Below are positions 5,179 through 9,670 of a stretch of 55,490 nt of DNA, in pieces. A program made the position numbers and the translations under genes. Positions within the stretch are counted from its first letter, which is position 1, and each line of letters opens with the position of its first letter. The notes below the pieces were generated by a model. It was not told the origin of the DNA, did not search any database, and was given only the letters and a program-made list of their open reading frames with translations. Origin of the DNA: Oligoflexia bacterium (GTDB lineage Bacteria; Bdellovibrionota; Bdellovibrionia; JABDDW01); the NCBI GenBank assembly GCA_020847095.1, contig JADLCR010000076.1:1-55490 (forward strand), in the 5' to 3' direction.

Positions 5179-5781
5179 TCAGAAATAATACAAGAACCCA
5201 ATGGCTCCAGTGGGCGCCGCGACAAATAGGGACGCCTCAAGCAGTACGGTGATTTCGGCGTAAAGGCTGCTCCCCGCCCATTCGCCTTTTAATTGCAGAA
5301 ACTGTAGCCCAATACCTGGAGAAAGAATGTGCTTTTGAAACTCTCCACCATCTCGCTCGCCTTGTGAAAGCAGCTTCTCGCCTATTATCGACGGTGTTGT
5401 TTTTTCAATTTTTCCTAAATTTCTTGTGGTGCGCCAATGCGAATATCCCAATCCCACGTACGGCATGAAGTAGTCTCCCGCAAGCACATACTTTGAAGAA
5501 AAGCTCACAGCCTGATACCCGCTTCCACCGCCGAAACCCACATCAAAACTCCACTTTGGAGAAATGTTGAGTTCAAGCATGAGACCGCCCATTCCCAACG
5601 CACCGGCCGCCTGGGCGCCCACACCCACTCGGCGAATTTTTCTTAACTCGGATCCGGTTTCGGCTTCTTTGCGTGGCCGAGGTGCCTTCAACTCTTCCAT
5701 TTCATCAACGGCAATTTTCCGAGCTTGTGCTTGAAACGCCAATGTCAAAATCAATGCTGGAATGAAAATTAGGATTCGCAT
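5179..5781 (-). CDS. Small outer-membrane-type beta-barrel protein
   Basis: A 200-residue protein with a signal peptide (MRILIFIPALILTLAFQAQA). The mature part has alternating polar and aromatic short strands such as WSFDVGFGGGSGYQAVSF, FMPYVGLGYSHW and LSPGIGLQF, and ends in a strand finishing YYF. A terminal aromatic residue is the usual signature of an outer-membrane barrel, and the length suits an 8-strand barrel. It starts at ATG 5781 after GGAGGG, only 12 bases downstream of the mlaD-like gene, so it is probably the last or next-to-last gene of the lipid-transport operon. A role in the outer-membrane end of that pathway is possible but unproven. Confidence 0.65.
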   Translation of the reverse strand: MRILIFIPALILTLAFQAQARKIAVDEMEELKAPRPRKEAETGSELRKIRRVGVGAQAAGALGMGGLMLELNISPKWSFDVGFGGGSGYQAVSFSSKYVLAGDYFMPYVGLGYSHWRTTRNLGKIEKTTPSIIGEKLLSQGERDGGEFQKHILSPGIGLQFLQLKGEWAGSSLYAEITVLLEASLFVAAPTGAIGFLYYF

Positions 5782-5793
5782 ATTCCCTCCGCC

Positions 5794-6570
5794 CTAAAAG
5801 AGCTTGGCTCGAATGCCTTCTTCTTGGAAAAACTTTTTAATTGCCGCTTTATCTAAAGGATCCAGCCGCCATAAGAGATTGTGAAGCAAATCTAAAGTTC
5901 GCTTTCCCTCTGGCGTTCGTACCTTGCTTGAAACTGCGCGCACATCTTCTGAAATTTCGACTAGATTCTTGAGCAACCTTGTCAACTCAACGTTTTGAGT
6001 CGTTTTGTCGAGCTGAACCAGAGTCTTATTCAAATTCGTTACAAGATGATCAAATAGCTCAAGGGTGTGAGTAACACTGCCTTCATTCTTCTCAACTAAA
6101 TCCAAAATCTTTCCTGCAAGACCATAACTTTGAGAAATCAACTGATCAATTCGAGGTGGGTCTTCGCCGCGGACCGTGGCTCCCGACTCAATAATGCTGG
6201 TGTTCATGGATCCTGGACTGATTTCGAGAAATTTCTCACCAATGATTCCGGCGAGATTAATAAAAAATTTGCTGTCTTGACGAACGGATTCGCGGGCTTT
6301 TTTATCGATAGAAATTCGAATTCTCAATTTAACTTCTTCTCCGGCGGCCGTTTTTTGATTGGGCATGAACTCGATTTTTTCAACTTTTCCGACCTTAATT
6401 CCCATGACTCTAACCGGAGAGCCGACTTCAATGCCTCCGGCGTAATTGTATTGAACATAAACTGGATAGGCATTTGTGAACGGAACCAAAGCGCCCATAA
6501 GCCAAGCAAAGATTGTGACCATGATGAGCGCGCCAACGAACAATAACCCGACTTTAGTTTCGATTTTCAC
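5794..6570 (-). CDS. mlaD: MlaD-like MCE-domain lipid transport protein
   Basis: A 258-residue protein with one N-terminal membrane helix (about residues 6-28) and an MCE domain (about 36-115). The domain contains the typical YNYAGGIEVGSPVRVMGIKVG start and AGIIGEKFLEISPG end. MCE proteins form hexameric rings in the periplasm that carry lipids between inner membrane and outer layers, fed by MlaE permease and MlaF ATPase. The C-terminal 140 residues are helical and may form a needle or tether. The start is GTG, with AGGGG about ten bases upstream. It is the only MCE gene beside two permease and two ATPase genes. Confidence 0.9.
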   Translation of the reverse strand: MKIETKVGLLFVGALIMVTIFAWLMGALVPFTNAYPVYVQYNYAGGIEVGSPVRVMGIKVGKVEKIEFMPNQKTAAGEEVKLRIRISIDKKARESVRQDSKFFINLAGIIGEKFLEISPGSMNTSIIESGATVRGEDPPRIDQLISQSYGLAGKILDLVEKNEGSVTHTLELFDHLVTNLNKTLVQLDKTTQNVELTRLLKNLVEISEDVRAVSSKVRTPEGKRTLDLLHNLLWRLDPLDKAAIKKFFQEEGIRAKLF

Positions 6571-6621: not shown

Positions 6622-7437
6622 CTAATAAAGGTAACTAAAAAGATAGGTTAAAATAAAGTCCATTATGATAATCGACACGGCGTTACTTACGACCGATTGG
6701 GTGGTGGAACGCCCAACTCCCTCGGCACCTGGTTGAGTGTTAAACCCGTAAAAGCAGGCTATGGTCGGGATGACCGCGCCGAAAACCGCCGCCTTTACTA
6801 GACCAAGGTAAAAGTCTTTGAATTGAGTAAACTGATTCATCGCCGTGAGAAAGCCCTCCCAAGAATAATCAAGGTGCCTTACGCTCATGACCATCTCGAA
6901 AAACAGGCAGGTGGCATCAGCAAAAATCACAATCACCACACTCGAAAGAATCGTCGCCACAAACCGCGGCACGACGAGATAGCGCATCGGATCCACACTT
7001 AAGAGTTTGAGAGCGTCAACTTGCTCAGTGATTTGCATGGTACCTAGCTCGGCGTTCATTCCCGCCCCCACTTTCGAAGTCAACAGGAACGCCGTTATTA
7101 CCGGTCCCAGCTCGCGAAAAACCAAGAGAGCCGCAAATCCAGGCACCAGTGCCGCCGTTTGAATCACAAGCTTCATGTGAAACGCGTATTCTAAAATCGT
7201 CGCCGTTGCCGCAAAGCTAATAGAAAACAATATGACTGGAGTGCTCTTGTACCCAATGAGGTAAAGTTGAGTGACAAATTCTTTAAATCGAAATGGTGGG
7301 GTCATGAGGGTGATCAGCATTTCTGACAGATAATCAAAAAAGCGAGAGAGCGTAGTTGAAACCTTTATCAACTCGCCGCCGAGATATTCAAAAGGCCAAA
7401 GCACCGCCTTAGATTGTAATCGCTCTCCAAGTATCAA
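6622..7437 (-). CDS. mlaE: MlaE-family ABC permease, copy 2
   Basis: A 271-residue inner-membrane permease of the MlaE/YrbE family. The family hallmark is seen as AELGTMQITEQVDALKLLSV followed by PMRYLVVPRF around residues 140-170, with about five hydrophobic helices. The first 45 residues form an amphipathic helix (residues VLWPFEYLGGELIKV), as in MlaE. The start is a TTG with AGGGG seven bases ahead, overlapping the end of the other permease by 29 bases; that overlap implies translational coupling. Together with copy 1 it could form a heterodimeric membrane core under the MlaD ring. Confidence 0.88.
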   Translation of the reverse strand: MILGERLQSKAVLWPFEYLGGELIKVSTTLSRFFDYLSEMLITLMTPPFRFKEFVTQLYLIGYKSTPVILFSISFAATATILEYAFHMKLVIQTAALVPGFAALLVFRELGPVITAFLLTSKVGAGMNAELGTMQITEQVDALKLLSVDPMRYLVVPRFVATILSSVVIVIFADATCLFFEMVMSVRHLDYSWEGFLTAMNQFTQFKDFYLGLVKAAVFGAVIPTIACFYGFNTQPGAEGVGRSTTQSVVSNAVSIIIMDFILTYLFSYLY

Positions 7438-8197
7438 GAAGCACCCCTGCTAAATAAGTTGTGAACCAATCCAACAACACGAGACCCACCATCGTCGCCA
7501 ACGCCGTTGCTAAAACTGTTTTTCCAACTCCCTTTGCTCCGCCTGTCGTGGTGTAACCTTTATAAGTGCACACAGTTGCCAAAAGAACGCTAAAGCAAAG
7601 ACACTTAAATAATCCACTCAACACGCTATGCCCTTCAACATACATCGGGATGGTATTGATAAATTCTGACGGTGATAGGTCGGCTACTAAAGTTGCCAGA
7701 ATAACGCCACCTAAAATTGACATTAGAAGTCCTAAAAACAATAAGAAAAACGCGCTAATGATGATTCCAAGAAATCTTGGGGCCACTAAGTATTGCATGG
7801 GATTGGTTCCCAAACACCTCATGGCATCGATTTGTTCAGTCACTCTCATGATCCCAAGCTCCGCCGACGTGTAAGCTCCAACTTTTCCGCTCAGCATAAA
7901 GGCAATGAGAAGAGGGCCCAACTCTCTGACGGTAGCGCTTGTTGATAGGCCCCCAAGCACCGAAAGCGCACCAAATTGTCGTAGCTGCATATTGAATTGA
8001 ACCGACATCAGCGCTCCAACAAAAAATCCCGAGGAGGCCGTCGTAAAAAAAGACGCCATGGAAATGTTGTAAATTTGGGTCAAAATCGCTTCACGATCAA
8101 TTTTGTATTTTCTGAGCGTTCTTATTATTTCGCCCAAAAACATGAGCCCCCCGCCCACTCCATCTAAAATACGAATGGCCGGAGTTATGATAACCAT
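7409..8197 (-). CDS. mlaE: MlaE-family ABC permease, copy 1
   Basis: A 262-residue permease with the MlaE signature AELGIMRVTEQIDAMRCLGT followed by PMQYLVAPRFLG, and hydrophobic helices at about 50-75, 90-115, 150-185, 200-225 and 235-255. It differs clearly from the neighbouring permease outside the signature, so this is an old duplication, not a recent copy. The ATG at 8197 has a strong GAGGAGG nine bases upstream that lies inside the end of the ATPase gene, with a 13-base overlap. MlaE proteins pass phospholipid to or from the MCE ring, driven by MlaF. Confidence 0.88.
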   Translation of the reverse strand: MVIITPAIRILDGVGGGLMFLGEIIRTLRKYKIDREAILTQIYNISMASFFTTASSGFFVGALMSVQFNMQLRQFGALSVLGGLSTSATVRELGPLLIAFMLSGKVGAYTSAELGIMRVTEQIDAMRCLGTNPMQYLVAPRFLGIIISAFFLLFLGLLMSILGGVILATLVADLSPSEFINTIPMYVEGHSVLSGLFKCLCFSVLLATVCTYKGYTTTGGAKGVGKTVLATALATMVGLVLLDWFTTYLAGVLLDTWRAITI

Positions 8198-8940
8198 CGG
8201 CTTCGATCCTCCTCAGTAATCTCGGCCAAGAAGTCTTTTACAAGCGGCACTTGGCTCTTCAATAGCTCCGAGGGAGTTCCTAATGCGATTAATTGTCCTT
8301 GATCTAAGACGGCAATGCGATCTGCAATTTCAAGCGCACAATGCATGTCGTGAGACACGACTATCGAAGTCGTGTTGAGCTTTCTTGAAAGTTCAGAAAT
8401 CAGGCGATTGATGGCATTGGTCGTGACGGGGTCCAGACCCGTTGTTGGTTCGTCAAACAACAGATAGCGAGGCTCGACAGCAATTGTTCGAGCTAAGGAA
8501 ACTCGTTTCTGCATCCCGTAGCTGATTTGCGGCGGCAGCTTGTCCTCAACTCCCTCTAAATGAACAAGGTCGAGACACTCGGTCACTCGCTTTTTCACTT
8601 CTTCTGGAGTCATGCCGGGAAAGTGTCTTCTCAATCCAAAGGCCACATTTTCGTAAACGGTTAGTGAGTCAAAAAGCGCTGGATGCTGAAAGACCATCCC
8701 ACACATCTTGCGAACCTCGAAGTATTCTTCTTCGCTCAATTTTGAAATCTCGCGACCCTCGAGGAGTATTTGACCGGACTCTGGTTTTAAAAGTCCGACA
8801 ATGTTTTTAAGTAGAACGGATTTTCCGGTTCCCGATCGGCCTAAGACGAATAAAATCTCGCCTTCCGAAATCGCTAAACTAATCCCCTTAAGGACTTCTT
8901 GAGATCCAAAGCGTTTAGTGAGGTTTTTTACTTCAAGCAA
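8185..8940 (-). CDS. mlaF: MlaF-type ABC ATPase with degenerate signature motif
   Basis: A 251-residue ATPase from a TTG start at 8940. The start has GGTGAGG six bases ahead and overlaps the previous gene by eight bases; an upstream TTG at 9018 would add 26 residues unlike the family. Walker A is GRSGTGKS (34-41), Walker B is LLFDEPTTGLDP with the catalytic Glu, and the H-loop SHDM keeps its His. The ABC signature, normally SGGxQ, reads SYGMQ. The adjacent ATPase has the opposite set of defects, so the two look made to work as a heterodimer. It powers the MlaE permeases (family knowledge). Confidence 0.88.
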   Translation of the reverse strand: MLEVKNLTKRFGSQEVLKGISLAISEGEILFVLGRSGTGKSVLLKNIVGLLKPESGQILLEGREISKLSEEEYFEVRKMCGMVFQHPALFDSLTVYENVAFGLRRHFPGMTPEEVKKRVTECLDLVHLEGVEDKLPPQISYGMQKRVSLARTIAVEPRYLLFDEPTTGLDPVTTNAINRLISELSRKLNTTSIVVSHDMHCALEIADRIAVLDQGQLIALGTPSELLKSQVPLVKDFLAEITEEDRSRWLS

Positions 8941-9670
8941 TGCGCACCTCACCGCGAATAAAGGCCTGCACGCGACGATCCGAATGCTTTTGTGTTTCTG
9001 CAACTCCGCCGGTGACAATGAGCTCCCGATCCGTCAGCAAACCCATGCGATCGGCCATTTGGTAAGCGCGATTCATATCGTTGGTGATCGATACAACTGT
9101 GGTTTTGAATTCTTTGTTCAATCTAATGATCAGGTCAATGATCAGGCGACTTGTGATGGGATCGAGCCCCGCTGTTGGATCGTCGTAGAAAATAATTTCT
9201 GGCTTCAAAATAAGCGCCCGGGCCACGCCCACACGTTTTTGCATGCCGCCCGAAATCTCATCCGGGAATTTTTGAGCGGCATGCGGAAGACCAACGGCCT
9301 CCAAAAACCAGTTGACCCGATCTTGTATTTCACTATCAGAAAGGTCCGATGACTCGCGCAATGGAAAAGCTAAATTTTCAAACACCGTAAAACTGTCAAA
9401 TAAAGCGTTTTTTTGAAAAACCATCCCCATCCTTCGAAAAAGCTTTTCTTGATCACTCTTCGAAAGACGATGAATTTCTTCTCCGCCGATCAAAACTTTT
9501 CCAGAACTGGGACGAACAAGGCCCGCAATGGTTTTGATGAGCACCGACTTTCCGGCGCCACTTGGTCCGACGATAACAAAGGTTTCTCCCTTGCCGACTT
9601 TCAGATTAACATCGCAAAGGAGTGGCTTTTGATTGTCAAAGCTAACGGTCAACTGGCTCACTTCAATCAT
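8933..9670 (-). CDS. mlaF: MlaF-type ABC ATPase with degenerate catalytic residues
   Basis: A 245-residue ATPase, first gene of the lipid-transport operon. Walker A GPSGAGKS (35-42) and the signature SGGMQKRVGVARAL are normal. The Walker B reads IIFYDDPTAGLDP, with Asp where the catalytic Glu belongs. The H-loop reads SITNDMNRAY, with Asn where His belongs. In ABC transporters these two changes cripple ATP hydrolysis at the site built on this subunit's Walker motifs. The intact signature can still serve the partner's site. The ATG at 9670 is preceded by an AAGGA that is too close to be ideal. It is divergent from icd across 146 bases. Confidence 0.87.
   Translation of the reverse strand: MIEVSQLTVSFDNQKPLLCDVNLKVGKGETFVIVGPSGAGKSVLIKTIAGLVRPSSGKVLIGGEEIHRLSKSDQEKLFRRMGMVFQKNALFDSFTVFENLAFPLRESSDLSDSEIQDRVNWFLEAVGLPHAAQKFPDEISGGMQKRVGVARALILKPEIIFYDDPTAGLDPITSRLIIDLIIRLNKEFKTTVVSITNDMNRAYQMADRMGLLTDRELIVTGGVAETQKHSDRRVQAFIRGEVRIA

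Follow-up and report, generated by a model that had tools for sequence, protein, structure and literature searches.

An Mla/MCE operon of Bdellovibrionota encoding two ATPases with complementary motif defects, predicted to form an asymmetric lipid transporter

The window analysed here is a stretch of 55,490 nucleotides from an Oligoflexia bacterium (Bdellovibrionota; NCBI GenBank assembly GCA_020847095.1, contig JADLCR010000076.1). Its minus strand carries a cassette of genes in the order ATPase A (9670-8933), ATPase B (8940-8185), permease P1 (8197-7409), permease P2 (7437-6622), MCE protein and outer-membrane barrel. The first four are mutually overlapping genes of a compact operon that opens with the two ATPase genes: B starts with a TTG at 8940, within the last codons of A (overlap ATTGCTTGA), and the genes of B and P1 share 13 bases. 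The features of the cassette are as follows.

8933 to 9670, minus strand: ATPase A, an MlaF-like nucleotide-binding domain of 245 aa; catalytic motifs degenerate, signature intact
8185 to 8940, minus strand: ATPase B, MlaF-like, 251 aa; catalytic motifs intact, signature changed
7409 to 8197, minus strand: P1, MlaE-family permease 1, 262 aa (PF02405, 1.6e-59; P1 clade 99%)
6622 to 7437, minus strand: P2, MlaE-family permease 2, 271 aa (PF02405, 1.2e-59; P2 clade 93%)
5794 to 6570, minus strand: MlaD-like protein with one MCE domain, 258 aa (PF02470, 5.8e-20)
5179 to 5781, minus strand: OmpA-type eight-stranded outer-membrane beta-barrel with a signal-peptide-like start (AlphaFold2 pLDDT 90.6)

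Family searches returned the ABC domain for both A and B. The top NCBIfam match of A was MlaF, under its equivalog cut-off, and its nearest solved relatives were MceG of the Mce1 complex and MlaF. MlaF was likewise among the top NCBIfam matches of B, whose best solved relative was MceG, MlaF-type ATPases also being recovered. Both proteins are thus MlaF/MceG-type ATPases on the evidence of NCBIfam and of solved relatives. P1 and P2 belong to the MlaE/YrbE family of permeases, both with PF02405 scores far above the cut-off, and the operon holds a single gene with the MCE domain (PF02470) of Mla/MCE (type VIII) transporters. No STAS (MlaB) gene was found by profile search among the operon genes scanned. 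Pfam and NCBIfam searches gave no match for the barrel; in a structure comparison its predicted model aligned to the OprF barrel with a Z of 15.6 and an rmsd of 2.0 over 126 residues. This gene is the final conserved one of the cassette in most Bdellovibrionia operons, a position which suggests that the barrel may be an outer-membrane partner of the MCE transporter.

Four MCE systems were identified in the 2.7 Mb genome to which the window belongs, with five MlaE genes and four MCE genes in total. The window locus is the sole one with two permeases; the three others (contigs C14, C72 and C5 of G000) have one permease each and are ordinary Mla operons. Such single-ATPase operons of the same genomes, in the order P-F-D, draw on the same families, but comprise one permease and one ATPase with SGG, DE and HD motifs, as in the operon on contig 14 (L083).

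Both ATPase reading frames were re-read, and the motifs and coordinates put forward in the sequence-only reading were all confirmed. ATPase A has the Walker A motif GPSGAGKS, the signature EISGGMQKR, the Walker B motif IIFYDDPTAGLDP and the H-loop SITNDM, and ATPase B has GRSGTGKS, QISYGMQKR, LLFDEPTTGLDP (LLFDEPTTGLD) and VVSHDM, respectively. The residues that distinguish the two, with their states in the 102 A-B pairs described below, are:

9179 to 9184, minus strand: A Walker B Asp163-Asp164 (FYDDPTAGLD), in which Asp replaces the catalytic Glu; DD in 75/102 pairs, DE in 27/102
9080 to 9082, minus strand: A H-loop Asn197 (ITNDM), replacing His; His gone in 100/102 pairs (N, S or T)
9245 to 9253, minus strand: A signature Ser140-Gly141-Gly142, intact; SGG in 102/102 pairs
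8515 to 8523, minus strand: B signature Ser140-Tyr141-Gly142, in which Tyr replaces the first Gly of SGG; never SGG in 102/102 pairs
8449 to 8454, minus strand: B Walker B Asp163-Glu164, intact; DE in 102/102 pairs
8350 to 8352, minus strand: B H-loop His197, intact; His in 102/102 pairs

ABC ATPases dimerize head-to-tail, each ATP being held between the Walker motifs and H-loop of one subunit and the signature of its partner (PMC7756269; for MlaF, PMC7367683). If A paired with itself, the catalytic motifs would be damaged at both sites, and if B did so, the signature would be damaged at both; a whole site arises only when A pairs with B. Changes of the Walker A Lys or of the Walker B Glu (Glu170Gln) in E. 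coli MlaF abolish complementation (PMC7367683), and a transporter without any whole site is therefore unlikely to be retained. An A-B heterodimer with one consensus and one degenerate site would be the only simple reading of the motifs, and from the sequences we strongly infer that such a heterodimer forms. Taking the operon as a whole, it very probably encodes an asymmetric MCE lipid transporter, made up of an A-B ATPase heterodimer, a P1-P2 permease heterodimer and an MCE ring.

Several classes of Bdellovibrionota supplied the 102 distinct A-B pairs whose motifs were tabulated. All the pairs go back to one origin and so amount to a single evolutionary experiment in which changes recurred, rather than to 102 independent trials. 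The consensus site (B Walker B DE, B His, A SGG) was whole in every pair and the opposite composite site was damaged from both sides in every pair, in agreement with the initial proposal of complementary defects. Lesions of the catalytic motifs were confined to A and those of the signature to B throughout (102/102). The B signature was SYG, sometimes SFG, or more divergent (GFS), with no instance of SGG, while A lacked the His (100/102), the Glu (75/102) or both. His and Glu occurred together in none of the A proteins, the two that retain His both being DD. The Walker A Lys and the Q-loop Gln were kept in A and in B in all pairs, as was the Walker B Asp of A.

The sequence-only reading had further proposed, as a check, to see whether three substitutions (Glu to Asp, His to Asn and SGG to SYG) occur together across the phylum. 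Paired damage did co-occur in all 102 pairs, with a signature change in 102 and H-loop loss in 100, but the Glu-to-Asp change was present in only 75. Independent variation, by which the good site would be lost or the bad one restored, was not seen in any of the 102 pairs. The stable lesion pair is the signature change of B together with the H-loop loss of A, and Glu-to-Asp lies outside this invariant core: in many operons outside the class of the window A carries DE, the H-loop being already lost and B already SYG, and the A tree requires four changes at the Glu/Asp position. Damage to the degenerate site thus varies in degree, with Glu retained by A in 27 pairs and His in 2. As Asp is a conservative replacement that still permits slow hydrolysis, and Glu is present in 27 of the A proteins, the degenerate site may retain activity in some of these systems.

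Single-ATPase MlaF homologues from the same phylum and from Acidobacteriota had SGG, DE and HD in 40/40 cases and showed none of these lesions. The arrangement is not the product of chance or of sequencing error, as it recurs in 102 distinct pairs and is absent from 40/40 single-ATPase homologues, and since 83 of the 102 pairs are mutually more than 22% different in A, the pattern has survived long evolution. Across the pairs, the residues of the degenerate site drift (D/E; N/S/T/H; SYG/SFG/GFS) and those of the consensus site are invariant; drift confined to the degenerate site points to relaxed constraint on one site, not to gene decay.

One might still regard SYG and the Asp and Asn residues as functional alternatives, both sites hydrolysing normally and the asymmetry having no functional meaning. 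The MlaF signature LSGGM itself departs from LSGGQ and works (PMC7367683), and sites with the conservative Glu-to-Asp change keep slow hydrolysis (PMC7756269). We consider this explanation extremely improbable: in all pairs it is the same composite site that carries the changes, the 40 single-ATPase relatives have none of them, and a change of the partner signature is the universal mark of human degenerate sites (PMC7756269).

In an ATPase tree built with the motif columns removed, all B sequences formed one clade (100% SH-aLRT) and all A sequences, plus a few orphan A-like genes, formed another (100% SH-aLRT). P1 and P2 were also resolved as separate clades (99% and 93%), which indicates that, for ATPases and permeases alike, the two types have been passed on as fixed partners that do not substitute for each other. 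Among 368 genomes of the phylum, an A-type match was present in 148, a B-type match in 141 and both in 130 (Fisher p = 7e-65, uncorrected for kinship). Most exceptions to this co-occurrence are explained by thresholds and incomplete genomes, and some A matches outside the class of the window are single-ATPase genes. The A-B operon order is kept across the class of the window and in other classes of the phylum, and the operon was also found in a separate set of named genomes, including Bdellovibrio bacteriovorus strain kdesi (L128). In two genomes (G224 and G207) A and B lie on different contigs and both are retained. Comparison of close relatives gave a dN/dS of about 0.03-0.09 for A and for B, i.e., strong purifying selection, so that A is not a decaying copy.

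These data also bear on whether A and B could form separate homodimers, each with its own permease, that share an operon and an MCE ring. An operon with two ATPases and two permeases could represent two half-systems, and both E. coli MlaF and mycobacterial MceG are homodimers. However, neither an A nor a B homodimer would hold an intact site, yet all 102 pairs persist under purifying selection, and the Walker B mutant Glu170Gln of MlaF does not complement. The single MCE gene and the overlap of the four genes further argue against two independent units, and we regard this arrangement as very unlikely. In one genome (G047, one assembly) B and P1 form a single protein of 570 aa with a linker of about 60 residues (L061:7639-9348), a fusion which suggests that, in the preferred A-B heterodimer, B docks on P1 and A is left for P2; B would thus probably pair with P1, and A with P2. 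Apparent fusions of A in G035 (627 aa) and L160 (482 aa) were rejected, being merely open frame 5' of the start.

Several side observations concern the gene neighbourhoods. Unrelated genes of 1-4 kb are inserted between A and B at seven loci (L048, L050, L066, L068, L041, L044 and L046); they differ among lineages, and both ATPases are still retained. In G224 (L234) A lies beside genes for isocitrate dehydrogenase, malate dehydrogenase and succinyl-CoA ligase, as in the window, but B maps to a different contig, and the place after A is taken by two ABC proteins of the exporter type, of about 640 aa. The genus coded g4 (G003, G020, G026, G045, G058 and others) lacks the whole A-B system and keeps the single-ATPase Mla operon, an apparent lineage-specific loss. 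The orphan A-like clade, present in Bdellovibrionia (L073, 6739-7503; L074, L076, L077, L228, L230, L231 and L239), comprises ATPases derived from A with a Walker B DD and often with the His kept; they stand alone, with no B, permease or MCE genes nearby. Four of these loci (L077, L228, L230 and L239) have a small conserved neighbour whose product carries a GxxFTE or similar motif.

Outside the phylum, the best B-like matches were Acidobacteriota genes in single-ATPase operons with SGG. No P1-type permease was found among 247 Acidobacteriota genomes, the two best matches being ordinary permease-ATPase-MCE operons. By these sequence searches, which outside the phylum covered Acidobacteriota, the two-ATPase form was found only in Bdellovibrionota.

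In the predicted transporter, the P1-P2 pair would sit above the ATPase pair, with the MCE ring on top. At the consensus site, formed by the Walker A, Walker B and H-loop of B and the SGG of A, ATP would be hydrolysed and drive the movement of what is probably a lipid substrate. At the degenerate site, formed by the damaged Walker B and H-loop of A and the SYG of B, ATP would be bound and hydrolysed slowly or not at all; probably occluded there, it would keep the dimer together during the opening and closing of the other site. One hydrolysis event would then take place per transport cycle, as in TAP, TM287/288, BmrCD, MRP1 and CFTR. The likeness to MRP1 and CFTR draws partly on general knowledge and partly on a review of human degenerate sites.

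A variant of this scheme has A as a regulatory or structural subunit largely out of catalysis, with ATP binding at A dispensable. Conservation is lower in A than in B (mean column identity 63% vs 73%), and the catalytic lesions lie in A, but the A proteins of all pairs retain the Walker A Lys, the Walker B Asp and the Q-loop Gln that ATP binding needs. We judge this variant improbable; its one point of difference from the main model is whether the degenerate site holds ATP.

The geometry of the putative A-B heterodimer was modelled as a tethered chain with the intergenic stop codons read as Gly; A and B share a reading frame in seven genomes. The AlphaFold2 model had a mean pLDDT of 80.6 and a pTM of 0.51, its domain arrangement not being confident. 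Compared with the PDB, it gave full-length matches to twin ATPases, with a TM of 0.74 to ATP-bound closed DppD (8wdb_D). Against ABCB1, the ATP-bound or outward-facing structures (0.69-0.73) scored above most inward-open or apo structures. The prediction shows a closed head-to-tail A-B sandwich to be sterically ordinary, the forced tether being such that it cannot separate A-B from A-A or B-B.

The sequence-only reading had described known Mla and Mce systems as having one ATPase type acting as a homodimer, and the published structures bear this out: the E. coli complex MlaFEDB has the composition MlaF2E2D6B2 and contains an MlaF homodimer (PMC7367683, PMC7790496), and Mce1 combines a permease heterodimer with an MceG homodimer (PMC9882608). 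E. coli MlaFEDB (type VIII; PDB 6XBD) resembles the window system in its MlaF-like ATPase, MlaE-family permease, MlaD-like MCE protein and the LSGGM-type signature, which in the window is found in A. However, it has one ATPase and one permease, both as homodimers, where the window has two of each in separate clades, and an MlaB STAS subunit, whose gene the window operon lacks. The window ATPases (245 and 251 aa) are also shorter than E. coli MlaF (269 aa) and end approximately where its C-terminal extension begins. Mycobacterial Mce1 (YrbE1A/YrbE1B, MceG, Mce1A-F; PDB 8FED) shares an MlaE/YrbE permease heterodimer and an MCE ring, both predicted in the case of the window, and among solved ATPases its MceG is the closest to A and to B alike. 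MceG, however, forms a homodimer and bears a long C-terminal extension, and Mce1 uses six different MCE proteins, compared to one in the window operon. The proposal that an Mla core with two different ATPases and two different permeases would be a distinct form holds against these papers.

The arrangement of the ATP sites has its counterparts among ABC exporters. In TAP1/TAP2 (ABCB2/ABCB3) the consensus site likewise combines the Walker motifs of one subunit with the signature of the other, and the degenerate site is the reverse; the lesions are also alike, with Walker B Glu and H-loop changes plus a change of the partner signature (PMC7756269), and the degenerate site binds ATP without hydrolysing it (PMC12422388). 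TAP differs in being a peptide exporter of the ER, with ATPase and membrane domains in one chain and another membrane fold. The bacterial heterodimeric exporters TM287/288 and BmrCD similarly have one subunit whose Walker B and switch motifs depart from the canonical form, which leads to an impaired site and an asymmetric cycle (PMC4046567), but they are multidrug exporters with fused domains and no MCE ring. Human degenerate sites show signature changes in all cases, followed by Glu to Asp, often with H-loop changes; the set of lesions is the same as in the window system and their hierarchy is similar (PMC7756269).

No description of a two-ATPase or degenerate-site Mla/MCE transporter was found in the open-access papers searched. 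A survey of Mla over all bacterial phyla leaves Bdellovibrio unmentioned and omits MlaF from its tree, owing to uncertain annotation (PMC10665443). We found no report of an MCE transporter combined with the degenerate-site principle, each part being known separately; this combination is what is new here. It is possible, and we propose it only tentatively, that an obligate A-B/P1-P2 heterotetramer with divided roles of its halves, a dedicated barrel and one ATP per cycle constitutes a distinct class of MCE transporter, in which, for example, the B-P1 half would drive lipid movement and the A-P2 half would serve as an ATP-locked clamp beneath the MCE ring.

Degenerate ATP sites are a long-debated trait of ABC exporters, and the direction and ATP stoichiometry of Mla/MCE transporters are disputed. 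With an MCE transporter that is asymmetric by nature, mutations could be placed in one ATP site or one permease half at a time, which a homodimer forbids, and trapping at a single site could arrest the lipid cycle at a defined step. Our results suggest that degenerate sites have apparently arisen again, with the same lesions, under a different membrane fold, and such a recurrence would argue that the asymmetry itself has been selected. The asymmetry is also a conserved feature of several classes of Bdellovibrionota, a phylum that comprises predators and related bacteria.
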